The position numbers were made by a program, and so were the translations under genes. Positions 1,983 through 31,938 of a DNA stretch of 64,000 bases are shown here, one piece after another (position 1 is the stretch's first letter; each line of letters begins with the position of its first letter). Where the stretch lies: positions 124,001 to 188,000 of the forward strand of contig NC_009616.1 of the NCBI RefSeq assembly GCF_000016905.1, given 5' to 3'. The stretch is from Thermosipho melanesiensis BI429. Its GTDB lineage: Bacteria; Thermotogota; Thermotogae; Thermotogales; Fervidobacteriaceae. The notes below the pieces were generated by a model. It was not told the origin of the DNA, did no database searches, and worked only from the letters and a program-made list of their open reading frames with translations.

Positions 1983-2059
1983 GGTGGCTATAGCTCAGCT
2001 GGTAGAGCGCCTGACTGTGGATCAGGTGGTCGTGGGTTCAAATCCCACTAGCCACCCCA
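1983..2059 (+). tRNA. tRNA-His (anticodon GTG)
   Basis: Acceptor arms GTGGCTA/TAGCCAC are preceded by an encoded G(-1) at 1983 facing discriminator C at 2056, the tRNA-His identity pair. The anticodon stem is CCTGA/TCAGG with loop CTGTGGA. CCA is encoded. Confidence 0.98.
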
Positions 2060-2092
2060 TTTTTTATATTACAACATATGTTAACGTAAAAT

Positions 2093-2169
2093 GCGCCCGT
2101 AGCTCAATTGGATAGAGCGTCGGACTTCGGATCCGAGGGTTGCGGGTTCAAATCCTGCCGGGCGCGCCA
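2093..2169 (+). tRNA. tRNA-Arg (anticodon TCG)
   Basis: The acceptor arms are identical to the tRNA-Arg(TCT) above. The anticodon stem is TCGGA/TCCGA with loop CTTCGGA, giving anticodon TCG. CCA is encoded. It is the last tRNA of the cluster, 62 bases before spoVS. Confidence 0.97.
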
Positions 2170-2231
2170 TATTGTCTTCCACTTAGATTTAGCAAACTTT
2201 TAAATAACATCACTGTAAAGGAGGTATTAAC

Positions 2232-2495
2232 ATGGAAGTTTTAAAAGTTGCATCTGGTTCAAATCCAAACAAGGTTGCCGGTGCTCTTGCGGGTGTAATC
2301 AGGGAAAAAGGGAAAGCGGAAGTTCAAGCAATTGGTGCTGGTGCCGTAAACCAAGCAGTTAAGGCTATCGCAATTGCAAGGGGTTATCTTGCTCCAAGTG
2401 GAATTGATCTTGTTTGTGTTCCAGCTTTTACCGATGTAAATATTGAAAATGAATCAAGAACAGCATTGAAGTTCATAGTCTTTCCAAGAGAATAA
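2232..2495 (+). CDS. spoVS: Stage V sporulation protein S (SpoVS) homologue
   Basis: The 87-residue product matches the whole SpoVS family: VLKVASGSNPNKVAGALAG at the N-terminus, the AIGAGAVNQAVKAIAIARGY core, and a closing TALKFIVFPRE. SpoVS is a small Alba-like fold protein that influences sporulation and cell division in Bacillus. It is also conserved in non-sporulating thermophiles, including Thermotogales, where it is probably a nucleic-acid-binding regulator (inference). AAAGGAGG lies 7 bases before the ATG. The gene follows the tRNA cluster and may be partly read from its promoter. An intrinsic terminator follows directly. Confidence 0.95.
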   Translation: MEVLKVASGSNPNKVAGALAGVIREKGKAEVQAIGAGAVNQAVKAIAIARGYLAPSGIDLVCVPAFTDVNIENESRTALKFIVFPRE

Positions 2496-2497
2496 TA

Positions 2498-2527
2498 AAA
2501 AGACACGGCCTTTCCGGCCGTGTCTTT
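2498..2527 (+). terminator. Intrinsic terminator, bidirectional
   Basis: Arms AAAGACACGGCC and GGCCGTGTCTTT form a 12-bp GC-rich stem with a 5-base loop, followed by TATTTTT. It ends spoVS transcription. The A-rich left flank lets it serve the convergent 5'-nucleotidase operon from the other side. Confidence 0.93.
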
Positions 2528-2543
2528 ATTTTTCTCTCATTTT

Positions 2544-4091
2544 CTATTTTCTTATGTATCTTGGTGTATCATCGTAATTCTCAATCATACCTTTTAAAGC
2601 TTTTTGAATGTATTCTACTACAACATCTGCCAAAACAAAGCCTGTATCGTAACCTGATGCTTTATTTTCTGAAAGCACTGAATATCCATCTCCTCCGCCT
2701 GCCATGTAGTTATTTGTTACAATTGTGTAAACTTTATCCATCTCAAGTGGCTTACCATTCACCATTACTTCTGTCACTTTTCCACCTTCACTCTTCCACA
2801 CTAATCCACCAACATGTAACCAAGCACCTTTTCCTTCTGGAATTGTTGCTGCATATTCCAACACTTTCATTACTTGCTCTCCTGTCATTTTCATAACATA
2901 CACTGTATTTCCAAATGGCAACACAGTTAAAATATTCCTTATGGTTATCTTTCCAGGTTCAACAGATGCTCTTATTCCTCCACCATTCTGAAATGCAATA
3001 TCTGCTCCTGTTTTCCATAGCATTGCATCGGTTATTATATGCCCTAAGTTTGTATCGCCAGATCTTACATGTGCCCTTTCTCCATCCAACAAGATCTTTG
3101 TTTCCCCTATTATCGTATCAAGTTTTTCTGAACCAATTTTTGCAAAATAATCAAGTGGAACTTTTACATACTCAGTTGGTTTATATTCTTTTCCTACAAA
3201 CTCATAAATTGAATTACCATCTTCATCTTTGCCCTTATATACTTTCAAATTAACTGGAATTGGTGTCCAATTCCAATTTTCTATTTTTCCATTTTCAACA
3301 TCAAGTTCTAATTTCCCAACAATTTTTCCCCATTCCCAAGCTTGAACCACTATTGTGTTATTAATAACCTTCGCCTTTTCAAGTTTTGTATGACTATGCC
3401 CATCTATTATAATATCTATTCCATCAACCATTTTTGCCAACTCTTCTGAAGTTGTATAATTTCCTTCGTAGGCTTGTCCCATTCCTAAATGTGTAAGTGC
3501 AACCACAATATCAGCTTTTTTCCTTAACCCCGGAACTATTTCCTTTGCTACTTCTATGGCATTTCTAAACTCCAAGTCTCTACTGTACAATGGTTCTAAA
3601 ATAGCAGTTTCTTCTGTAGTTAAACCAAATATAGCAATTTTTACCCCACCAACGTTTTTTATAATGTAAGGTTTAAAGAATGGCTTACCATCTTTGTAAA
3701 TATTCGCTGATAAAAATGGGAATTTTGCAATATCCATCTGATACATCAACACATCTCTTGTTTTATCAAATTCATGGTTTCCTACTGCCATTGCATCTAA
3801 TTTCATTCTATTAAGAGCAAAAATATCTGGTAATGCATTTAAAAGATCAGATTCAGGAACACCTGTGTTTATGTCCCCTGCATGTAAAAACAAAACATTG
3901 GGATTCTTCGCCCTTTCTTCATCAATAATTGATGCAATTACTGCAAAGCCACCTATATTTGGATTGTGATATTCACTAAATGTCCAAGCATGGCCATGAG
4001 TATCGTTAATGTGGAAAATAATAACTTTTGTTGCAAAAAGACTAATAGCAAAAATTACAAATAACACTACAAACAACTTAAAATTCTTCAT
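2544..4091 (-). CDS. Exported 5'-nucleotidase / UshA-family metallophosphoesterase
   Basis: This 515-residue protein starts with a signal peptide (MKNFKLFVVLFVIFAISLFA). The N-terminal calcineurin-like domain has the metal motifs FHINDTHGHAW (D at about 30), LHAGDINTG, GNHEFD, LTHLGMG and DGHSHT. The C-terminal 5'-nucleotidase domain (about 310-500) holds the substrate-binding stretch NGGGIRASVEPG. The length fits the family. It should remove phosphate from nucleotides outside the cytoplasmic membrane and so salvage nucleosides. AAAGGAGG precedes the ATG. It is the last gene of a long leftward operon, 39 bases after the ABC exporter gene. Family assignment is firm; the preferred nucleotide is unknown. 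Confidence 0.93.
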   Translation of the reverse strand: MKNFKLFVVLFVIFAISLFATKVIIFHINDTHGHAWTFSEYHNPNIGGFAVIASIIDEERAKNPNVLFLHAGDINTGVPESDLLNALPDIFALNRMKLDAMAVGNHEFDKTRDVLMYQMDIAKFPFLSANIYKDGKPFFKPYIIKNVGGVKIAIFGLTTEETAILEPLYSRDLEFRNAIEVAKEIVPGLRKKADIVVALTHLGMGQAYEGNYTTSEELAKMVDGIDIIIDGHSHTKLEKAKVINNTIVVQAWEWGKIVGKLELDVENGKIENWNWTPIPVNLKVYKGKDEDGNSIYEFVGKEYKPTEYVKVPLDYFAKIGSEKLDTIIGETKILLDGERAHVRSGDTNLGHIITDAMLWKTGADIAFQNGGGIRASVEPGKITIRNILTVLPFGNTVYVMKMTGEQVMKVLEYAATIPEGKGAWLHVGGLVWKSEGGKVTEVMVNGKPLEMDKVYTIVTNNYMAGGGDGYSVLSENKASGYDTGFVLADVVVEYIQKALKGMIENYDDTPRYIRK

Positions 4092-4130
4092 AAGCCCACC
4101 TCCTTTTAAAGTTTGTACATATATATTTTA

Positions 4131-5861
4131 TCACAAACTCTCTTCAATTAATTGTTTTTTATACATGTCTGCATACAACCCATCAATTTCCATTAATTGC
4201 TTGTGTGTTCCACTTTCTACAACTTGGCCATCGTCAAAAACATAAATTATATCTGCGTCTTTCAAAACTTTTAATCTATGTGTAATAATTATCATTGTTT
4301 TACTCTCCATACTCTTTCTCAAAGAACTTATTATCTTCTCCTCTGTTTCAGGATCAACCGCCGATAAACAATCGTCAAAAATAAAAACATCACAATTCCT
4401 TATCAATGCCCTTGCAATTGTTATTCTTTGCTTTTGACCACCTGATAAAGTTACTCCTCTTTCTCCAACAACTGTATCATAACTCTTCGGAAACCTTTCT
4501 ATATCACTATGAACAGCAGAAAGCATAGCATATTCCTTAATCTGCCATTCTTCAAAATCATCCAAACCAAATGCTATATTGTTCTTTATGGAAGTGGAAA
4601 ATAAAAATGTTTCTTGTGGTACATAGGAAATTTTTGTTCTAACTATTTTAGAAGGTATATCGTTAATATCATAACCATTTATATACACATACCCTCTTTC
4701 AACTGGATATAGCTTACTTATTATCTTCACAATAGTTGATTTTCCACTACCCACAGTTCCAACAATTCCTACTAACTGTCCCCTTTTAATTTCTAAATTC
4801 ACACCTTTTAACACATATCTGTTGGAATCTGGATATTTGTAATTTAAATTTTTTATTGTAATATCATTTATTTCATCTATTTCAACAGGGTTATCAGGTT
4901 CTACTACTTTTGATTGTGTTTTTAAAACTTCCAAAATCCTTGTATATGAAGCCCTACCATTTTGGATAATATTAATAACCCAACCAAAAGCCGTTAATGG
5001 CCATACAATCATTCCAATATAGTTGTTAAAAGCAAAAAACATACCCAGGGTAATTTTTTGATTTATTACCATAGGTCCTCCATAGGCTATGGTAATAAAA
5101 TAAGAAAGAGAACTTATGAAATGTATAAGCGGCCACATAATACCCCAAACTTTAACTAACGATAATGTTGCTCTAAAATTTCTGTTCGCTCTGTCTAAAA
5201 ACAAATTCTCAAACTTTGGCAGTATTGAAAAAGACTTTAAAATTCTAATTCCATCTATTGATTCCTCGGTAAATCCACTTAAATCAGAAAACGTATCCTG
5301 TACTTTTTTAGATCTTTTGTAAATAAATTTTCCAAAAACAAGTGATATCAACATTATGAATGGTAAAGGAATTAACGCAATAAGCGTAAGTTTCCAACCC
5401 ACACTTGTTGCCATGAAAAATAACGTTATAACAGACATAAAAGAAGCATCTACCATCATAACTATTCCAGGGCCTAGCATTCTTTCAATATTGTTCATAT
5501 CATTTGTAAAATTCGCCATTAAATCTCCACTTCTATTTTTATCAAAAAAAGACATATCTAAAGATAAGATTTTATCGTATAGAATCTTCCTTGCCTCATA
5601 AGTAAATTTTCTTGCACTACCAATTATAAAAAATCTCCAAAAGAACCTTGTAAAAAACATACCAATGGCAATACCTATTATTCCAATTGCCATTAATTTT
5701 GCAACACCTATATCCGGTGTTTCTACATTCAAGCTATCTACCGCTCTAGAAATAAACTTTGGAACTATAAGCTGTAATGTGTCAACTACAATAAGTGTAA
5801 TAACCCCTGCAAAATAAAACCAAATACGTCTCTTTAAAAACTCTCTAATCAAAAACATCAC
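4131..5861 (-). CDS. ABC exporter half-transporter (TMD-NBD fusion) with non-canonical Walker B Asp
   Basis: This 576-residue protein has six predicted membrane segments (1-300) fused to an ABC ATPase: Walker A GTVGSGKS (368-375), Q416 in the Q loop, LSGGQ signature (472-476), and switch His H528. After Walker B the catalytic Glu is replaced by Asp (FIFDD, D497), as in the degenerate chain of heterodimeric exporters such as YheI/YheH and TM287/TM288. That implies a partner with an intact site, but no second exporter gene is adjacent. The ATG overlaps the stop of the preceding Fn3/propeller gene (ATGA), so the two are translationally coupled. The substrate is unknown; export of a drug, lipid or peptide is possible. 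Confidence 0.9.
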   Translation of the reverse strand: MMFLIREFLKRRIWFYFAGVITLIVVDTLQLIVPKFISRAVDSLNVETPDIGVAKLMAIGIIGIAIGMFFTRFFWRFFIIGSARKFTYEARKILYDKILSLDMSFFDKNRSGDLMANFTNDMNNIERMLGPGIVMMVDASFMSVITLFFMATSVGWKLTLIALIPLPFIMLISLVFGKFIYKRSKKVQDTFSDLSGFTEESIDGIRILKSFSILPKFENLFLDRANRNFRATLSLVKVWGIMWPLIHFISSLSYFITIAYGGPMVINQKITLGMFFAFNNYIGMIVWPLTAFGWVINIIQNGRASYTRILEVLKTQSKVVEPDNPVEIDEINDITIKNLNYKYPDSNRYVLKGVNLEIKRGQLVGIVGTVGSGKSTIVKIISKLYPVERGYVYINGYDINDIPSKIVRTKISYVPQETFLFSTSIKNNIAFGLDDFEEWQIKEYAMLSAVHSDIERFPKSYDTVVGERGVTLSGGQKQRITIARALIRNCDVFIFDDCLSAVDPETEEKIISSLRKSMESKTMIIITHRLKVLKDADIIYVFDDGQVVESGTHKQLMEIDGLYADMYKKQLIEESL

Positions 5862-13985: not shown

Positions 13986-14684
13986 GTTTCTACCTTACCT
14001 TGGAGGAATTGAAACTATATCTTATTGAGGCTAAGTGGACGTGCATTTTATGTTTCTACCTTACCTTGGAGGAATTGAAACATGTTGGATTTCTTCTTTT
14101 ATCAAGTGTGATAGAAATAAGTTTCTACCTTACCTTGGAGGAATTGAAACTAACAAAAAATGTTGTATTGGATTGACGTCGTACTAAGTTTCTACCTTAC
14201 CTTGGAGGAATTGAAACAGACATTAACGCAAATACTGCTCTTGCCGCTCTTGCTTCGTTTCTACCTTACCTTGGAGGAATTGAAACTTAAGTAAGTTTTT
14301 GGATGGCAAGAGAAGTTTAAATGTTTCTACCTTACCTTGGAGGAATTGAAACTGTGGATGAAAGAATTAGAATTCCCACACCATACACGGTTTCTACCTT
14401 ACCTTGGAGGAATTGAAACTGTACGATGACTCTGGTCGGATTCTACACTCGTTTGAGTTTCTACCTTACCTTGGAGGAATTGAAACAAATATTGGTGGTG
14501 TTCTTCCTCAAGAATTTTTGGAGTTTCTACCTTACCTTGGAGGAATTGAAACACATTATTGTCATCCTCTGTAACTAGTTACAACACGCCGTTTTTTCTT
14601 ACCTTTGAGAAATTGAAACATCTCTCCTTGAGGGAAATTCGTTGAGGCCCTTTGAACTTTTTACCCTACCTTGAAAGTTGAAAC
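13986..14684 (+). CRISPR. CRISPR array: 9 identical 30-nt repeats plus 2 decayed repeats at the trailer end
   Basis: The repeat begins GTTTCTACCTTACC and ends GGAATTGAAAC. Perfect copies start at 13986, 14052, 14121, 14188, 14257, 14323, 14390, 14457 and 14523, with spacers of 36-39 bases. Two degenerate copies follow, at 14591-14619 (29 nt) and about 14657-14684 (28 nt), still ending in GAAAC. Decay at the far end and a promoter at the low-coordinate end place the leader on the left and transcription on the + strand. The ATTGAAAC terminus fits type I-A/I-B or III systems. No cas gene occurs in this window, so the Cas proteins must be encoded elsewhere. Confidence 0.98.
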
Positions 14685-19559: not shown

Positions 19560-19604
19560 GTTAGTAGTATAATTATAATAACAAAAATGTTTGGAGGGAT
19601 AATT

Positions 19605-22600
19605 ATGAAAAAAATACTAGCTATTTTGCTTATTTTTGTATCCGCAATATCTTTTCCATACATTTGGTTTTATTCTACCAATGTTTTAATTTATCCCAAT
19701 AGAACGGTAAACTTTGAAACTGACGAAAACTTTTTCGTTAAAGTATTTCGTTTTGATGTTTCAAAGGAAGCAGTAAAAGGTATTTTCTCAAATGGTGGAA
19801 CTCAATCAGAGTTTTCTATAAAAAACATCAAGAAAAATTTTTATTCACTAGAGCTTCCAGATGTTCCTGGTATATATTATGTAATTGTAAATGGAAAAGA
19901 AAGCATAGCAAGACAAATACTTTTTGTGACAGACCTTAAAGCTTTTATTGCTTCGACTAGCAATCAATTCTATTTCTCAGTATATGATCTAAGAAATAAA
20001 AAATTTTTGGAAAAACTTTATTACTTTGACAATTACACCACAAAAACCATAAATGGTCCCATATTCTCATTAAATATTGAAAAATACAAAGATAAAGTTT
20101 TCTTCTTAAAAAACAATATAGTTATACTTTCAAACTACGGAGGATGGTCAAATTATCCTGAAAGGAAAACTGTAGTATTTACTGATAAACCTATATACAA
20201 ACCTGGAGATACTATACACGTAAGAATCAACGCATTAAAAAAAGACAATACCAAATATATTCCATATCAAACAAAACTACATGTATCTTTAAAAGACCCT
20301 TTTAATAATATTGTTTATAAAGATACATTTGAAACTGACACATTTGGAGGAATAGTTTTTGATTACAAAACAACAGAAGAAATAATAACGGGAAATTATA
20401 CTTTAATCATCTCTGAAAACGATGAAATTCTTTCCAGGTATTATTTATTAGTTCAAGACTACACAAAACCAACATATACACTATCTCTTACCGCTAATGC
20501 AACACAGCTTATTGTAAGCGATACCTTACAGGTAAAATTAAATGCAGGATATTTAAATGGTGATCCAGTAAAAAACGCTGAAGTTTTATTTTATGCATTT
20601 AAAGGTTCCCATCTGATAAACAAAACCAAAGCAATGACAAACGAAAATGGCAAAGCCACCTATAACATCGTTACAAAAGAGGCTGGATATTACAGAATTC
20701 AGGCGTTAATTGTAGATGATTCTGGAATACAAAATGAAAAAAATATTTACGCAATGGTAAAAGCAGACAACGTTGATATTAAAGGTGCTATTGATAATGA
20801 AACATTAAAACTCAGAATCACAAATATTTCTGGAGACCCATTAAATGGCATTGGGGTTGTAAACATAAATGAAAAAGAAATTTATTTTGAAGTAAAAAAT
20901 GGATACGCAGAAATTGCCATACCCAAAAATACTTGGTGGATAGAGGTAAAGTTTGGGAAAGAAGCCAAAGTAATATATAAAAGTTTTTCAGTTAGTAATT
21001 CCGGAATTATAGTTGCAAATAAAAACAGTGTGAAACCTGGCGAAAAAATTAAAGTGGCAATTGATCCAAAAGATGATATAGGAGTGTTGGTTACCGGGGA
21101 AGAAAAAATAAGAAAATTTAATATTATCACTAAAAAATCCGAAATAGAATTAACAATTCCAATTGATGAAATTTCATCAACATATTTCATTGAGTTTTTT
21201 GGGTTAAAATATAACGACAGAGTAAAAATAAATGTAAACCATGATAGAGTGAAAACCTTGAAAATTAAACTAGATAAAACTCAATACAAACCCGGAGAAA
21301 TTGCAAATATAAAGTTTGAAAATTCTAAATCTTTAAAAATCGTAAGCGTTGTAGATGAAGGAATATATTTATTATCCAACGCAAAATCAGTTGTAAATCA
21401 ACTCTATCCTGAAATTAATTATCCTTCATATGAATTATACACTTCGAAAACATATGTTTATTTTAATAGGCTATCTGAGTTTGAGAAATCAAAAAAAAGT
21501 CATATATTTGCTTCTACAAAAGAATCTGAAGAAAGACGAATAAGGGAATATTTCCCAGAGACAGCATATTGGAATCCATCATTGATGAAAAATGAAATTT
21601 CTTTAAAAACTCCAGATAGTATTACCAAATGGAGAGTAACAGCTTATGAAATTTCTAAGAATTATATAGCAGAAGGCATCAAAACTTTTGTTGTAACAAA
21701 ACCTTTTGAAGTAAAGATTTTCGCCCCGGAATTTTTGGTTGAGGGAGATAAGGTTATAGGTGAAATATATGTAAAGAACTATACTGGAAAAATAGGAAAG
21801 GTTGATGTGAAATTAAATGTAAATAATGGGATGGTTGATTTTAATAGTGGAAGATATAAGATAGAAAAAGAATTGAAAATTCCGTTTACATTAAAAGACT
21901 TTAAAGAAGGTGATTTAAAAATTACAGCCGAAGCATCAATGTTAAGTGAATATGATGGAATAAAATTAACAATTCCTGTGAAACCAATTTATATTTCAAA
22001 AGATACAAGCAAAGTTGTAAAGATCGCTGGAAAAAAGGTTTTTGATAAGGATGCAAAGATAAGAGTAATAAATAACTTAAAAGATTTTTTAGAGCCTTCA
22101 ATCAAAGCACTTATACATTACCCGTATGGTTGTGTTGAGCAGACAATGAGTTCTTTTTACCCTGTACTTGTTGCAAAATCTTTTATTGAATACCCAAACT
22201 TAGATGACATTATTTTAAAAGGTCTTCAAAGACTTTTAAAATTCCAGCATACAGATGGAGGTTGGGGTTGGTGGACTTTCGATGATAGTGATTTATTTAT
22301 GACTTCATATGTTTTAGAGGGTCTTTACTATACTAAAAAACTTGGATTTTTTGTTCCAGAGAAAGTTATATTGGATGGATTAGAATACCTTAAAAATCAA
22401 CCAATCGATGGATATGCGGCTTTTATCTTGAATCTTTATGGTGAAAAAAATATAGATTTTAAAGCAAGAAACGTAGTTGATTATGTATATACTGATCCAG
22501 ATAAAATATATGAAATAGCAACTATAGGTAAAGATATTACATATATCAAAAGCAACCCATCAAACCATTTCTACACATCAATACATCTTACTAGCATTGC

Positions 22601-23528
22601 TGTTAGGACACTTACAAGGTATAACAAGTATCTTGATTTAAGAGATAAAATGATAAATTATCTTTTAAATAGCAAAAAAGGGCCTTTCTGGTATTCAACT
22701 AAAGATACAGCTTTTGCAATTCTTGCAATTATTGAAAGTCAGAAATTAAATGATTATAAGAGTAACATAATTTTTGAAGCAAAAGATAACAAAATTTGCG
22801 TATCTGGAAATGGTTTTGTTGATGTTGAATCAACTAAAAAGATATATGCTCAAAATCAATTTAATGACATAAATCTTAAAAATAGATTATACAAAAAATA
22901 TGACTTGTTATATGACGGAAAATATTTGGATGTTTTCTTACCAGTTAATACGCAATTTATTCCAATAAATATGTCTAAGATATCTACTCCTACTTTTAGT
23001 TCAGAAATTCCGGAAGAAATAGCAAGAATAATAATTGATGGAACACCAGTATTATTTGTTAATAACAAACTTTTAATTGAAGGGCCATTTAAATTTGTTG
23101 GAAATAATTATTATTTTGAGAAAGGATATTATGAAATTAATTTTACTAAAAATTATGATTATGAAATTCACAAAGGTGATGTTTTGAAAACTTCCATTTT
23201 TATAGACGGAACAGGTGAATATTTGGTAGTTGAAGAATACCTTCCAGCATGTGCCCAGGTTTTAAAAAATTATGTTGAAAGAACACCTGATTATGAAGGA
23301 AAATTTTCATACAGGTGGTATTCAAATGAAGATATATGGTATAGCTATAAAGATGTGAAAAAAGATAAAATTGTGTATTTTATAAGATATTTACATCCAG
23401 GAAAACTAGAATATTATTGGAGGGTAACAAGTGAAGGAATTTTTCATAAAAAACCAACGTACGTATACAACATGTACTATGAAGATACTTTTGCTATTGG
23501 TTCACTTTATCCCTTTAATATCAAATAG
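19605..23528 (+). CDS. Exported bacterial alpha-2-macroglobulin (thioester protease trap)
   Basis: This protein of about 1307 residues begins with a signal peptide (MKKILAILLIFVSAISFP). It has the A2M layout: MG-type beta domains including 'TDKPIYKPGDTIHVRI', a central segment running into 'YWNPSLMKNEISLKTPDS' and 'ITKWRVTAYEIS', then the thioester motif GCVEQT (C843, Q846) at the start of the alpha-helical thioester domain. A2M proteins trap attacking proteases and link to them covalently. GGAGGG lies 7 bases before the ATG at 19605; the ATG at 19587 has none. The usual E. coli-type partner PBP1C is absent. Instead a gluzincin-like gene and a DUF1175 gene overlap downstream, a YfaS/YfaT-like arrangement. 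Confidence 0.92.
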   Translation: MKKILAILLIFVSAISFPYIWFYSTNVLIYPNRTVNFETDENFFVKVFRFDVSKEAVKGIFSNGGTQSEFSIKNIKKNFYSLELPDVPGIYYVIVNGKESIARQILFVTDLKAFIASTSNQFYFSVYDLRNKKFLEKLYYFDNYTTKTINGPIFSLNIEKYKDKVFFLKNNIVILSNYGGWSNYPERKTVVFTDKPIYKPGDTIHVRINALKKDNTKYIPYQTKLHVSLKDPFNNIVYKDTFETDTFGGIVFDYKTTEEIITGNYTLIISENDEILSRYYLLVQDYTKPTYTLSLTANATQLIVSDTLQVKLNAGYLNGDPVKNAEVLFYAFKGSHLINKTKAMTNENGKATYNIVTKEAGYYRIQALIVDDSGIQNEKNIYAMVKADNVDIKGAIDNETLKLRITNISGDPLNGIGVVNINEKEIYFEVKNGYAEIAIPKNTWWIEVKFGKEAKVIYKSFSVSNSGIIVANKNSVKPGEKIKVAIDPKDDIGVLVTGEEKIRKFNIITKKSEIELTIPIDEISSTYFIEFFGLKYNDRVKINVNHDRVKTLKIKLDKTQYKPGEIANIKFENSKSLKIVSVVDEGIYLLSNAKSVVNQLYPEINYPSYELYTSKTYVYFNRLSEFEKSKKSHIFASTKESEERRIREYFPETAYWNPSLMKNEISLKTPDSITKWRVTAYEISKNYIAEGIKTFVVTKPFEVKIFAPEFLVEGDKVIGEIYVKNYTGKIGKVDVKLNVNNGMVDFNSGRYKIEKELKIPFTLKDFKEGDLKITAEASMLSEYDGIKLTIPVKPIYISKDTSKVVKIAGKKVFDKDAKIRVINNLKDFLEPSIKALIHYPYGCVEQTMSSFYPVLVAKSFIEYPNLDDIILKGLQRLLKFQHTDGGWGWWTFDDSDLFMTSYVLEGLYYTKKLGFFVPEKVILDGLEYLKNQPIDGYAAFILNLYGEKNIDFKARNVVDYVYTDPDKIYEIATIGKDITYIKSNPSNHFYTSIHLTSIAVRTLTRYNKYLDLRDKMINYLLNSKKGPFWYSTKDTAFAILAIIESQKLNDYKSNIIFEAKDNKICVSGNGFVDVESTKKIYAQNQFNDINLKNRLYKKYDLLYDGKYLDVFLPVNTQFIPINMSKISTPTFSSEIPEEIARIIIDGTPVLFVNNKLLIEGPFKFVGNNYYFEKGYYEINFTKNYDYEIHKGDVLKTSIFIDGTGEYLVVEEYLPACAQVLKNYVERTPDYEGKFSYRWYSNEDIWYSYKDVKKDKIVYFIRYLHPGKLEYYWRVTSEGIFHKKPTYVYNMYYEDTFAIGSLYPFNIK

Positions 23529-23949
23529 TATTAAAATTCCAAACCAAGTTATATGCAACTTTGAAATTCCATATGAAGTACGGAATGATTTGTACAAATT
23601 TCTAGATGAAGCGAGTTTAACACTACCAACCACACCAGTATCTGTATACGAAACTACTAATCTATATGAATTTAATAAAACTACTGGTATGCCATACAGC
23701 GTTGGTGGAATATACAAGGATTTTATTATTATCTTGCAACCAAGAGATGTTTTAATCAAAAAAGGAGTATTTTACAAGGTATTAACACATGAATTATTAC
23801 ATTGGGTATTATACGGCCTGAAAGAAGAATATCAGGAAGGATTGATATATTGGTGGTTGAAAGATTATGAAAAAGATGAGGTTGATAAGTTTCTTGATGT
23901 TTTTGATGGTGATTTACACAAATTTATTATTTCCAATTGGAAAGAGTGA
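23431..23949 (+). CDS. Small exported zinc-protease-like protein (peptidase MA / minigluzincin type)
   Basis: The 172-residue product has a hydrophobic signal-like stretch (about 17-33) and the zinc motif HELLH (120-124), followed by 'YQEGLIYW' with E136 as a possible third ligand. This HExxH...EGxxxY pattern is that of small peptidase-MA-like gluzincins. The start is GTG at 23431: GGAGGG lies 6 bases ahead (23419-23424), whereas an in-frame ATG at 23479 has no ribosome site. The gene overlaps the A2M gene by 98 bases in another frame, so their translation is coupled. A secreted protease beside a protease trap suggests a matched pair or a processing enzyme (inference). Confidence 0.7.
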   Translation: MKEFFIKNQRTYTTCTMKILLLLVHFIPLISNSIKIPNQVICNFEIPYEVRNDLYKFLDEASLTLPTTPVSVYETTNLYEFNKTTGMPYSVGGIYKDFIIILQPRDVLIKKGVFYKVLTHELLHWVLYGLKEEYQEGLIYWWLKDYEKDEVDKFLDVFDGDLHKFIISNWKE

Positions 23950-24529
23950 CTTAAAATCTTTAGAAAATTTAAAATTAGATGTTGAGGATTCTATGAACTT
24001 TAGACTTTGGTTTGTTGCGATTGCATTAGATAATGTTGATAACGAACATCCTACTTTTAAAACAAAAGATTGTTCAGGCTTTGTCTTTTATTGCATAAAA
24101 GAAGCTCTTAAAAAACATGATAAGGATTGGTTTGAAAAAACAGGTTACAAAGGACCGGTATTTGAAGATGTAAAAAAATACAACTATCCCAATACTCCGT
24201 TAGGTGTGAATATATTTTTTAATAGAAAAAAATATGTAAGTTATGTGGATGCATATAACCTTTTACACTATAATACTTACTTTATATCATATGAAAAAAG
24301 ATATGCTAAACCAGGAGATTTGATATTCTATTTCCATCCTGAAGATCCTGAATTTCCCTATCATGTAATGATATACACAGGAAATGGTTTTGTATACCAT
24401 ACAGGTCCTGAAGGTGAAGTTAGATATGTATCTTATGAAAATATGATGCTTGGCGATATGGCATGGAAACCTATTGAATTGAATCCTGCCTTTTTAGGAT
24501 ATTATGGATTAAAAATTCACTCCAATTAA
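23867..24529 (+). CDS. DUF1175 (YfaT-like) exported NlpC/P60-type protein
   Basis: The 220-residue product starts with a signal peptide (MKKMRLISFLMFLMVIYTNL). It has the catalytic pattern of the NlpC/P60 superfamily: KDCSGFVFYC, AKPGDLIFYFH, and YHVMIYTGNG. It most resembles DUF1175, the family of E. coli YfaT, which is also encoded next to an A2M-like gene (YfaS). That context supports the assignment and suggests that A2M and DUF1175 work together in the envelope, but no reaction is established. It overlaps the gluzincin-like gene by 83 bases. The ribosome site before 23867 is weak, so expression may depend on coupling. Confidence 0.8.
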   Translation: MKKMRLISFLMFLMVIYTNLLFPIGKSDLKSLENLKLDVEDSMNFRLWFVAIALDNVDNEHPTFKTKDCSGFVFYCIKEALKKHDKDWFEKTGYKGPVFEDVKKYNYPNTPLGVNIFFNRKKYVSYVDAYNLLHYNTYFISYEKRYAKPGDLIFYFHPEDPEFPYHVMIYTGNGFVYHTGPEGEVRYVSYENMMLGDMAWKPIELNPAFLGYYGLKIHSN

Positions 24530-25929: not shown

Positions 25930-26448
25930 ATGAAAATTCAAAGCTTTAACTTTGATTTTTCATATCAACGAACATTTATTAAAGTCAAAAAGAGTGCAAA
26001 CGTACTTATATATGAAAAGAAAGAAAAGATAAAAGAAAAAGATCTAATAAAGTTAATTATATCAAAAGAACTTCTTGAAAAACTTACAGGAAAGAAATTT
26101 AAATTAGCTCTTCCAAAAATAAGGTATAAAATTATGGTAAAGATTGGTAAACCTGAAATCGAGGTTTACCATGAAAAATTCCAATTGAGCTTTTCAAAAA
26201 CTACTATAGAAGGAAAAATTACCACTGAAGATGGAAAACAAATTTCTTTTTCATACTTTGTCGACAATTTAAATTTACTTTACTCAAAGAAAGATGGATT
26301 AGAAAGAATTGATTTTTCACTGCAAAACACAAACATTAAAGAAAATTTATCTATAATCTTTAACAATACGGAAGGTTCTATTATTTCAGAAAATAAAATT
26401 TTAGGTTATGTCACCCCTTCAGAACAAAATATTGATAAAAAAGTATGA
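25930..26448 (+). CDS. Hypothetical protein, probably Thermosipho-specific
   Basis: I do not recognise this 172-residue protein. It has no signal peptide, membrane helix or Cys motif. It is Lys-rich and, from about 100 onward, predicted beta-rich, with alternating polar and hydrophobic residues (GKITTEDGKQISFSYFVDN). A basic N-terminal half holds KKEKIKEKDLIKLIISKELLEKL, a likely amphipathic helix pair. It stands alone between the divergent alcohol dehydrogenase and the convergent NADH oxidase. The ribosome site (GGTGG) is modest. Codon use looks like its neighbours, so it is likely a real gene of unknown role. Confidence 0.7.
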   Translation: MKIQSFNFDFSYQRTFIKVKKSANVLIYEKKEKIKEKDLIKLIISKELLEKLTGKKFKLALPKIRYKIMVKIGKPEIEVYHEKFQLSFSKTTIEGKITTEDGKQISFSYFVDNLNLLYSKKDGLERIDFSLQNTNIKENLSIIFNNTEGSIISENKILGYVTPSEQNIDKKV

Positions 26449-27801: not shown

Positions 27802-27841
27802 ATCTTTCTCCTCCTTGTGATTTTTTTAACTATCCAATCTT

Positions 27842-27870
27842 ATTATACTACTAATTTTGGACAAAGTCAA
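27842..27870 (-). promoter_or_regulatory. Promoter of the NADH oxidase gene
   Basis: On the minus strand TTGACT (27865-27870) and TATAAT (27842-27847) are separated by 17 bases, giving an untranslated leader of about 35 bases. No operator-like repeat was seen around it. Confidence 0.88.
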
Positions 27871-27922
27871 TTATTAGATAATAAAAAAATTATTTTTACC
27901 TAATTTATACATAAAAAAATAA

Positions 27923-27948
27923 AATAATGCGGATTTCTCCGCATTATT
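27923..27948 (-). terminator. Intrinsic terminator of the CPBP operon
   Basis: AATAATGCGGA-TTTC-TCCGCATTATT is a perfect 11-bp stem followed on the minus strand by TTTTATTTT. It contains the stop codon of the CPBP gene. Confidence 0.9.
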
Positions 27949-29473
27949 GACTAATAACTTCTTTTTCAGAACCAAATCTTAGAAATTCAATAATGTTAAA
28001 TAAAATATAAATATAGCACGAAAGAGAAACAATAACTCTAACATCTTTCAAACCTACTTTCTCTGTAAAATACATCAGAATATAAATGAGAACCAAATAT
28101 ATCATATTAAAGATATAGAGACTCTCCTTTAATAAAGACGAACTCGATAAAAGAGTTATTAATAGCAATACCAAAAGAGGAATTTTGTAATATAGTCCAA
28201 AGGATAAAATAAGGATGGTTGAAAACAAAATAAGTAAAATACCTAATTTTTTATCTTTAAAAGTGTTGAAATATATAAAAATAAGGATGGGTATAATTAT
28301 ACTAAAAGAAAAACTAAATAACAAAAATAAAAATTCACATAGTATTATCAAATAGAATAAAGGTTTTTCTGTATTATACTTTTTCAAAAACAAATAACAT
28401 AAAAATATTCCAGAAAACAATAGATTTTCAGTCTTAAATAACACTTCCCATCTTCCACTGTAAATACCAAAAAATACAATATTGGCCAAAAAAAACCAAA
28501 ATAACATATTTTTTTCTTTTTCACTATCTAGTAATTCAAGAAATAACATCAACAAAATTGGAATAAAAATAACAAAAGAATAATCAATTAACAACGCAAT
28601 CACTTGGAAAGCCACTAACAGATAAAACCCTATTTTTTTGTATTTTTTTACAAGTAAAACCACTAAAAATAATAGAATAATAAACAATTGTCCATAAGTA
28701 ACATAGTAGTTTCCTTTTAAATTCTGTAACGAAACATTTCTAGATAATAATAAAATTGAGTATAAAAACAAAAGCAATGGTATATAACCCGGAGTAAATT
28801 CTTTAAATTTTATACTTGATATCTTATAGTTTTTAAAGAATATATATGTAATTACAACCAAACCTATTCCGTCCGAAAGTAAATTTGTTACGTTGTTATC
28901 AACAAAAAAATTATTTAAAAAATGAATTGTTGTTACAAGCCAAATATTTTTCGAATGCTCGTAAATTAATGCATAAAAAATCCCCGAAACGAAAATTTGA
29001 AATAATCCTCCATAATAGAAACTACGAATATGAAAATACGTAAAAATCCCCGCACTCAAGAATGTTGCAAACAAAAAACCCTTTCTTGATTTTATATAAT
29101 TATACAAAAACCATCTAATTAATAATTCCTCTCTAAACGCTAATACATATGTAACGAAAATACTTACAAAAAAACTGGCATTTGGTAAAACCTTTCTTTG
29201 AACCACAACAAACACAACAAAAAAAGTCATTAATAAAGAAGAAAAGACAAAATCTTTTAAATTAAACACATCTAACCTTAGCCTTTTTTCCTTAAAGTCT
29301 TCAAAAAAAAGGCGAGTAGTTACTGAAATAAATATTACACAAAAAAAGAGCACAATCACCCCATCAAAAAAGGTTCCATAATTAACTTCTGCATAAGACT
29401 CCAAAACAGGAACAAAATAAGTAAAGAGAAAAAAACCTAAAATAGTATAAATTATTCCTTTAAAATACTGCAA
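27944..29473 (-). CDS. Polytopic membrane protein with CPBP (CAAX-type) intramembrane protease domain
   Basis: The product has some 15 membrane helices. The N-terminal third carries the three CPBP/Abi motifs: EELLIRW (EExxxR type), FTYFH and IHFLNN, which build the metal site of intramembrane CAAX-like proteases. The long C-terminal membrane region has no motif that I recognise. The start is taken as TTG at 29473, with GGGGGG 6 bases ahead. The longer frame from GTG at 29500 begins inside a hairpin. CPBP proteins process prenylated or secreted peptides, and many give bacteriocin self-immunity. The preceding gene encodes a small exported protein, a plausible substrate. Confidence 0.8.
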   Translation of the reverse strand: MQYFKGIIYTILGFFLFTYFVPVLESYAEVNYGTFFDGVIVLFFCVIFISVTTRLFFEDFKEKRLRLDVFNLKDFVFSSLLMTFFVVFVVVQRKVLPNASFFVSIFVTYVLAFREELLIRWFLYNYIKSRKGFLFATFLSAGIFTYFHIRSFYYGGLFQIFVSGIFYALIYEHSKNIWLVTTIHFLNNFFVDNNVTNLLSDGIGLVVITYIFFKNYKISSIKFKEFTPGYIPLLLFLYSILLLSRNVSLQNLKGNYYVTYGQLFIILLFLVVLLVKKYKKIGFYLLVAFQVIALLIDYSFVIFIPILLMLFLELLDSEKEKNMLFWFFLANIVFFGIYSGRWEVLFKTENLLFSGIFLCYLFLKKYNTEKPLFYLIILCEFLFLLFSFSFSIIIPILIFIYFNTFKDKKLGILLILFSTILILSFGLYYKIPLLVLLLITLLSSSSLLKESLYIFNMIYLVLIYILMYFTEKVGLKDVRVIVSLSCYIYILFNIIEFLRFGSEKEVISQ

Positions 29474-29491
29474 AAAAATCCCCCCAAAATA

Positions 29492-29514
29492 GCCTTCCAC
29501 AAAATGTGGAAGGC
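29492..29514 (-). terminator. Intercistronic hairpin (possible attenuator)
   Basis: GCCTTCCAC-5 nt-GTGGAAGGC is a perfect 9-bp stem between the small exported protein gene and the CPBP gene. It is followed on the minus strand by TATTTT and then the poly-G ribosome site. It may terminate part of the transcripts so that more small protein than protease is made. Confidence 0.75.
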
Positions 29515-29521
29515 ATATATT

Positions 29522-29917
29522 TTAAAATTCAAATTTTTCTTTCACACTATCGGTTAAATTTACATAAATTGTAGGTTGACCAACATATGAGCGATAAATA
29601 TTTTTCTGATAAATTAATCTTAATTGTTCCAACTTTTTCCTTGCTTTTATTTTAGCTAAAGAAACAGCTTTAGCAGGTGTTTCAGCACAAGCTTTAACAT
29701 AATAAACTAACTCTTTTATATCCTCAACCATTTTCTCAACTCCATCCACTATTTCTTCAGAATGAACAATTACCTCAATACAAAGTTCTATAATTGCTAT
29801 AGCTGTAACTGGTCCAATTTCTAGTCTATCATCACCTTTTGAAATATCCACCTTTTCATTTGCCATTAAACTCAAACTCAAAATAACCACAACTAAAACT
29901 ATTAAAAATTTTTTCAT
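29522..29917 (-). CDS. Small exported protein of unknown function, upstream of CPBP protease
   Basis: The 131-residue product has a clear signal peptide (MKKFLIVLVVVILSLSLMA), giving a mature form of about 113 residues. It contains a hydrophobic helical stretch, GPVTAIAIIELCIEVIVH, then acidic and basic amphipathic helices. Two Cys residues are present, in ELCIEV and KACAE. No family was recognised. It is the first gene before the CPBP membrane protease and is expressed from its own promoter with a palindromic operator candidate. A secreted peptide or protein precursor processed by the protease is a reasonable hypothesis, but not shown. Confidence 0.78.
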   Translation of the reverse strand: MKKFLIVLVVVILSLSLMANEKVDISKGDDRLEIGPVTAIAIIELCIEVIVHSEEIVDGVEKMVEDIKELVYYVKACAETPAKAVSLAKIKARKKLEQLRLIYQKNIYRSYVGQPTIYVNLTDSVKEKFEF

Positions 29918-29946
29918 ATTTTACACCCACCTGGTTTATTGATTTT

Positions 29947-29964
29947 TGTCAAGTCGACCTGACA
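29947..29964. promoter_or_regulatory. 18-bp palindromic operator candidate
   Basis: TGTCAAGTCGACCTGACA is palindromic at 8 of 9 base pairs around GTCGAC. It lies 5 bases downstream of the -10 box of the small exported protein gene, over the expected transcription start, where a repressor would block initiation. Confidence 0.7.
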
Positions 29965-29969
29965 GTAAT

Positions 29970-29997
29970 TTTATAACATAAAAAGAAAAAAAGTCAA
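29970..29997 (-). promoter_or_regulatory. Promoter of the small exported protein / CPBP operon
   Basis: On the minus strand TTGACT (29992-29997) and TATAAA (29970-29975) are spaced 16 bases apart. The region 29998-30132 upstream is AT-rich and shows no gene. Confidence 0.75.
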
Positions 29998-30132
29998 CAA
30001 CATGTAATAATAAAAGTAATCAAAATTTAATATAAAAGTACTAATAATATAAATAACACACACTAATGATAGTTGTAATATCTATGAAATCAATAATTAA
30101 TTTTACAATAACAATAAAGAAAAAATAAAAAA

Positions 30133-30154
30133 TCCCGATCATGTGATCGGGATA
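30133..30154 (-). terminator. Intrinsic terminator of the chemoreceptor gene
   Basis: ATCCCGATCA-TG-TGATCGGGAT is a perfect 10-bp stem followed on the minus strand by TTTTTTATTTTTT. Confidence 0.92.
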
Positions 30155-30174
30155 AAACACAAATTTCTTACATT

Positions 30175-31815
<1,641 letters not shown>

Positions 31816-31895
31816 TTAACTATAACGAAAATATCACCTCTTATATTAAAAATCAACAAAGCAATGTTACTTTAAAGTAAAATATTCAAAAAAAT

Positions 31896-31922
31896 AAACC
31901 TGGCCTTAAAAAGGCCAGGTTT
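31896..31922. terminator. Intrinsic terminator after the Cys-rich protein gene
   Basis: AAACCTGGCCTT-AAA-AAGGCCAGGTTT is a perfect 12-bp stem flanked by A and T runs. It ends the leftward M3 peptidase / Cys-rich protein operon. Confidence 0.93.
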
Positions 31923-31938
31923 TATCTCAAAACATTTT

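Follow-up and report, generated by a model that had tools for sequence, protein, structure and literature searches.

On the minus strand of the window (the whole 64,000-nucleotide stretch of Thermosipho melanesiensis BI429 DNA analysed here), a small exported-type protein and a CPBP membrane protein are encoded together in what we read as a horizontally moving two-gene cassette, whose CPBP protein would mature a bacteriocin-like exported protein. We assign this reading a probability of roughly 45%. The layout is found again in five other operons, in which a small secreted-type ORF lies directly upstream of a CPBP gene (among the matches listed). That one layout recurs with very dissimilar small proteins suggests a family of bacterial genes, so far undescribed, for competition or signalling. 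We found no published description of such loci in the genera Thermosipho, Fervidobacterium and Marinitoga.

Every feature named in the original prediction is present in the window: a promoter, a palindrome at the start point, a small secreted-type protein with a hydrophobic helix, a hairpin and a polytopic CPBP protein (Table 1). The intercistronic hairpin has an RNA fold z of -3.5, a value that none of 200 shuffles equalled. In the window as a whole, terminator-like hairpins are in excess (4 vs 0.7 from shuffles) and promoter-like matches are not (14 vs 17.2). Because the GTG at 29500 falls within the hairpin and the TTG at 29473 is preceded by GGGGGGA, the TTG is the likelier start of the CPBP gene, which would then encode 509 residues.

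Table 1. Features of the two-gene operon and of its surroundings, in window coordinates
Feature	Position	Strand	Detail
Sigma-70-type promoter, predicted	29968..29997	-	TTGACT (29997-29992), 18-nt spacer, TAAAAT (29973-29968); consensus scan
18-bp imperfect palindrome TGTCAAGTCGACCTGACA, operator candidate	29947..29964	.	8/9 pairs; at inferred start point
Small exported-type protein, 131 aa	29522..29917	-	ORF with ribosome site AGGTGG upstream
Signal-peptide-like leader, residues 1-19	29861..29917	-	Hydropathy; cleavage after LMA inferred
Second hydrophobic helix, residues 34-52	29762..29818	-	Mean hydropathy of 18-residue stretches peaks at 2.21
Intercistronic hairpin	29492..29514	-	10-bp stem, 3-nt loop, then TATTTT
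Long CPBP (Rce1-like) membrane protein, 518 aa from GTG 29500	27944..29500	-	
PF02517 core with EELLIR, FTYFH, HFLNN	28904..29176	-	
Extra polytopic membrane region, ~300 residues, no known family	27947..28891	-	
Terminator of the two-gene operon, at the CPBP stop codon	27923..27948	-	
Stretch holding the CPBP, small-protein and chemoreceptor genes; absent at this place from G003, the nearest relative	27802..31938	.	

Places of CPBP genes were collected from 103 Thermotogota genomes, 79 of which have a match; they comprise 134 distinct CPBP-like ORFs among the matches listed. Eight entries had a small secreted-like ORF and six of these, one being the window, were kept; a membrane protein (L144) and a 244-residue entry representing a decayed piece (L085) were set aside. 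The cassette named F1, present in genomes G005, G011 and G017, consists of a 136-residue secreted-type ORF followed directly by a 423-residue CPBP protein, and F2 is its paralogous pair in G017 (35% and 39% identity). In G100, a small ORF of 172 residues with one in-frame stop precedes a CPBP gene of 292 codons; the stop in this small gene (L097, 1046-1564) is a TAG, and palindrome, hairpin and CPBP are intact. G086 contributes two cassettes, with 137 and 202 residues (C4) and with 132 and 231 residues (C6) for the small and CPBP proteins, respectively. G017 holds a third, three-gene operon (type-II) with a near-copy of ACTAAACCGCGGTTTAGT, the palindrome of F2. Small exported-type proteins beside CPBP genes, for which the original prediction had proposed to look, are found in other species, with a palindrome and often a hairpin. 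A hairpin of at least 6 bp occupies the gap between first and second gene in 5 of 6 cases (window, G100, G086a, G086b and type-II), as compared to 21 of 84 control gaps (p 0.007). F2 is the negative case and the F1 genes overlap, leaving no gap, which counts against our preferred reading.

Other arrangements were also seen. A 435-residue CPBP protein in G082 has no small partner. The three-gene operons of G017 (L085, 612-2267 on the minus strand; L093; L094) encode a small first protein, a familyless second one of 214 to 335 residues and a CPBP protein in third position, and a decayed copy adjoins the F2 pair in that genome. In L114 (G086, 2019-4712), one small exported-type gene is followed by tandem CPBP genes (231 and 229 residues) and then by more membrane ORFs.

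By its sequence, the window CPBP protein is a member of the type II CAAX (Rce1-like) protease family and a predicted protease. PF02517 is matched at residues 109-199 (E 8e-14, 52.1 bits for a cut-off of 22.4), and the EExxxR, FxxxH and HxxxN motifs are intact (EELLIR at 124, FTYFH at 153, HFLNN at 193); the catalytic motifs are invariant among the window, F1 and F2 proteins. Its score with the MrtJ equivalog NF033192 is 15.3 bits, for a cut-off of 75. Nine of its 13 hydrophobic segments start at residue 204 or later and match no family, in line with the claim of a long extra membrane region of about 300 residues without a known family. This extension has no detectable homology, the F1 and F2 proteins included: searches with the full-length protein matched only the core elsewhere, and, of the 61 Thermotogota genomes searched, the part beyond the core was matched in its own genome only. 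The F1 CPBP was not found in plasmids, nor were the F1/F2 profiles in viral contigs. Apart from the F1 paralogue, the window and F1 CPBPs are reciprocal best matches among the CPBPs compared (58.9 and 57.0 bits; next, 45.4 each). The CPBP tree groups the window protein with F1 and F2 (92/69), and the type-II CPBPs join this clade at 84/54; the kinship of the three is suggestive only, with clade support below the usual threshold.

The small protein of the window has a signal-like N-terminal segment and a second hydrophobic segment from residue 34, and hydropathy predicts its export. The mature protein is acidic (pI 5.5), as are those of F1 and F2, whereas most bacteriocins are not. No family of Pfam, NCBIfam, PHROGs or PADLOC matches it above cut-off, nor does any bacteriocin family of Pfam and NCBIfam; PADLOC-DB, a collection of known anti-phage defence systems, yielded 0 families for the small protein and the CPBP. 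Similarly, F1, F2, the G017 type-II protein and the partners in L208, L123, L134 and L114 match no family above cut-off. The window protein was found in one of the 61 Thermotogota genomes searched, its own, and in none of the other 60. Such absences from genome searches are not firm, since the F1 and window CPBPs missed each other there despite a BLASTP E of 1e-13. No relatives occur in GTDB contigs (close peptide patterns), phages or viral contigs, and at E<=1 the only plasmid match is to a piece of an ATP-grasp gene (E 0.4). With no detectable relatives, the protein is not seen conserved away from CPBP neighbours.

Comparison with the other small proteins gave a similar picture. The window and F1 proteins have no BLASTP match and an hhalign probability of 0.1%, and phmmer with the window protein finds only itself among the 2,776 ORFs of the loci examined. 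Shuffle z values are 3.4 against G100 (the best), 2.1 against G086a and -0.8 against F1, so that the links of the window protein to other small proteins are marginal at best. Elsewhere, F1 and F2 small proteins are homologous (shuffle z 20.7), and those of L123 and L134 align at 23% identity. Judged from these alignments, the window partner is tied to the other cassettes by layout, not by sequence. Single-sequence structure models had mean pLDDT values of 46.7 and 47.8.

The palindrome at the start point is uninformative when taken alone, because the AT-rich window holds 19 palindromes of 18 bp with at least 8/9 pairs for 19.8 expected. TGTCAAGTCGACCTGACA itself is the sole site at up to 3 mismatches in the 1,915,238-bp genome. 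It stands out from chance in that independent operons have such a palindrome at the same position. For the 80 bp upstream of each first-gene start, the highest-scoring 18-bp palindrome reaches 8 in the window, 9 in F1, 9 in F2, 8 in G017 type-II, 9 in G100, 8 in G086a and 7 in G086b, as compared to 511 control ORF starts, 17 of which score 8 and 2 of which score 9. The test leaves out the window, which prompted it, and the type-II operon, which was found via its palindrome. Among the matches listed, at least 8/9 pairs are then reached in 4/5 operons vs 19/511 controls (p 1.5e-5), G086b failing with 7/9, and a perfect 9/9 palindrome in 3/5 vs 2/511 (p 4.4e-6). In another set, of 193 other small secreted-like ORFs, five reach a score of 8, and one of the five (L120) belongs to the same kind of locus.

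The seven palindromes are mostly unlike in sequence. The self-complementary centre that all of them have is more in keeping with an operator acting as DNA than with the loop of an RNA. A stem-loop in the 5' part of the mRNA, which would leave the rest of the cassette reading unchanged and overlaps the other alternatives, is improbable: the window palindrome does fold into a 7-bp stem with a 4-nt loop, as does that of F2, but the window stem has a z of only -0.95, the F1 palindrome does not fold so in its context, and a self-complementary centre would be needless for an RNA loop. As for a shared motif, TCAARYCGRYYTGA seemed common to the window and to F1, whose start-point palindrome is CATCAAACCGGTTTGATG, and occurs in 7 of the 20 genomes of the family. 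It was rejected as a shared operator, four sites outside cassettes (L067, L068, L072 and L074) having no such operon. A common operator motif was rejected as well because of these sites, because the F2 palindrome differs, and because, of six weaker F2-like sites inspected, five fall within ORFs. The sharing of motifs is limited to G017, whose two operons have one in common, and to genus g20 (presumably Marinitoga), which shares a half-site with G086b. Within the G017 genome, ACTAAACCGCGGTTTAGT occurs at exactly two places at up to 3 mismatches, each before such an operon.

The cassette is missing in the nearest relative, G003, in which a CoA-disulfide-reductase-like gene and the gene of a 98-residue protein are adjacent, without the cassette and a chemoreceptor gene between them. 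In the window, this chemoreceptor gene (30175-31788) separates the cassette from the next conserved gene; it is absent from that place in G003. Two further stretches of the window (19587-24529 and 25930-26448), encoding a 1313-residue protein, a DUF1175/NlpC-type protein and a 172-residue orphan, have no match in the flanking-gene stretch of G003. A CRISPR array of nine repeats is located at 13986-14552 and matches the CRISPR-DR2 family at gathering score.

For F1, the identity is 99.95% over 5.8 kb between G011 and G017, with 96.5% in a neighbouring block, and 99.97% between G005 and G011, with transposase-like ORFs alongside. From these alignments, the F1 segment is evidently one that was recently shared among Fervidobacteriaceae genomes. 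The near-identical segment measures 5.8-6.9 kb in three genomes of this family (L086, L087 and L088). L088 also has a 250-bp direct repeat (97.6% identity), with copies about 5.4 kb apart.

Genus g20 gives the closest view of how the small proteins change. A profile of two small proteins matches whole proteins in G087, G090, G092 and G086 and, in G050 and G088, the leader alone. Five loci were compared with a reference, L218, after lining them up at the operator TCTGGNNCCAGA. The leader region is 91-98% identical over 58-110 aligned bases, and the CPBP side is 79-90% identical in four of the five; L214 shows no such similarity. The mature region has no blastn match to L218 in any of the five comparisons. 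The L218 and L214 proteins agree at 20 of 24 leader residues, and past the leader they have no significant similarity (60 of 200 shuffles did equally well); in L214, a locus with a related leader, no CPBP ORF lies in the stretch that begins 1,300 bases before the operator and ends 2,200 bases after it. Conversely, L216 and L217 have mature parts that are alike (1 of 200 shuffles as good) and leaders that differ. Decayed copies are found at L215 and L219. Within genus g20, not in the window species, the cargo is, on this sequence comparison, exchanged behind a fixed front and beside a fixed CPBP.

This exchange bears directly on the role of the CPBP protein, for which maturation of the peptide or immunity had both been put forward. 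If the cassette were a toxin-immunity pair, the small protein would be a bacteriocin acting on membranes, against which the CPBP and its extra membrane region would protect the producer. Such a pair would fit a patchy and mobile two-gene cassette and the gathering of several cassettes and decayed pieces in G017, the long extension in the window, F1 and F2 could be its specific part, and a part in bacteriocin self-immunity has repeatedly been ascribed to CPBP proteins (PMC9298176, available part). However, a specific immunity protein would be expected to change along with the mature region, whereas in genus g20 the CPBP side keeps 79-90% identity beside a wholly different one. We therefore hold this pair to be unlikely, although cassettes with a long CPBP, as in the window's family, could differ from those of genus g20 in this. 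Since CPBP and leader are constant and the cargo changes, an action of the CPBP on the leader or precursor is favoured over specific immunity; of the two proposed roles, it is maturation or export that the g20 data favour.

In the working that we infer for the cassette, a single promoter, equipped at the start point with a palindromic operator of its own, would drive a Sec-exported small protein, and the intercistronic hairpin would, by attenuation, pass only part of transcription to the CPBP, a glutamate-type intramembrane protease. Most likely, the protease would act on the leader or on the membrane-bound precursor of the exported protein and release or mature it. The exported protein, helical and membrane-inclined in the window, would most likely act on competing close relatives and be swapped or diversified under pressure from competition. 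The cassette itself has no regulator gene. An exported protein that changes so fast is probably antagonistic or signalling, and antagonism among relatives is the best fit to the exchange, patchy distribution and mobility, followed by signalling or variable surface proteins.

The likeness to bacteriocin or peptide-signal loci drawn in the original prediction is reasonable by layout, because a small exported-type protein with a CPBP recurs in other species, but the expected company is missing: the ORFs of the inserted stretch (27802-31938) include no dedicated exporter or modification gene, and no sensor kinase, response regulator or receptor gene, and the small protein is acidic and outside the bacteriocin families. 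The lack of sensor, regulator and receptor genes in this stretch weighs against a peptide-signal cassette, in which the CPBP would release a signal carried by the small protein, in the manner of MroQ with AgrD, and the response operator would be the palindrome. A kept leader and CPBP with a variable mature part would resemble pheromone groups, and most operons own an operator candidate, but, at more than 100 residues, the mature proteins would be large pheromones, and we put the probability of a signal very low.

Thermotogota have an outer toga, so that Sec export alone is no proof of release. The small protein could then be a periplasmic or surface component of the envelope or toga, with a turnover controlled by the CPBP and a variation due to phages or grazing. 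A Sec-type leader would agree with this, as would the diderm toga envelope described in the accessible text of PMC3387000, and surface proteins may also diversify by exchange of parts; its presence in one of 61 genomes, the two-gene mobile islets and the absence of a known structural family make such a component improbable. Returning to maturation of an exported, bacteriocin-like protein, a wider version of it can be tentatively proposed, namely an undescribed polymorphic class of exported proteins across several Thermotogota families. Palindromic operator and conserved Sec leader would form a fixed platform, the mature domain would be swapped as a whole, and a linked CPBP recognising the leader would release the cargo; the window protease would have gained a second module of about nine membrane segments, perhaps an export channel or an immunity part fused to it.

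If true, thermophilic Thermotogota would own a swappable exported-protein system in which the protease stays constant and the cargo changes. Natural cargo variants beside one protease would make it testable whether bacteriocin-linked CPBPs protect or process, and heat-stable small antimicrobials could be a practical by-product.

Among known systems, the bacteriocin-associated Abi/CPBP self-immunity proteins, reportedly described by Kjos in 2010 and cited in PMC8538875, belong to the same PF02517 family and likewise lie beside small exported peptides. Their loci are mostly from lactic acid bacteria and have double-glycine leaders and ABC exporters, and they differ from the situation in genus g20, where the CPBP is kept while its partner changes. 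SilX, a CAAX protease of Streptococcus anginosus, is closer in role: in the available text of PMC9298176, it is needed for the production of bacteriocins, not for immunity. As in our cassettes, a CPBP with EExxxR and FxxxH motifs stands beside genes for a small exported-type protein, there an antimicrobial (angicin), and a role in processing rather than immunity would be common to both (PMC9298176, as far as available). The SilX/angicin locus has, according to the same partial source, a quorum system and dedicated exporters; the window cassette is without a sensor and differs by its Sec-type leader, its two genes only, its start-point palindrome and the 300-residue extension of its CPBP. MroQ with AgrD and SagE with SagA provide further cases of a CPBP maturing a small ribosomal product (from the accessible part of PMC9298176), but the window cassette has no agr or streptolysin-like genes. 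In MrtJ/JDVT-CTERM and myxosortase systems, as far as the available source text goes, CPBP proteases act on exported proteins; the window partner has no tripartite CTERM sorting signal at its C-terminus, its hydrophobic segments being only those from residues 1 and 34 onward. Within Thermotogota, the 46-kDa CPBP RS08750 of Fervidobacterium islandicum rises after nutrient depletion, as a paper on keratinase describes (PMC7017815, available part). Polymorphic toxins share the conserved front (as in genus g20), the exchanged business end and the mobile islets, and membrane proteases have been proposed for their release (PMC3482391, available part); in contrast, the window-type proteins are much smaller, have no recognised toxin domain and come with no specific immunity gene that we could find. 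Overall, we judge the cassette to be a variant of CPBP-linked peptide loci, already known in kind.
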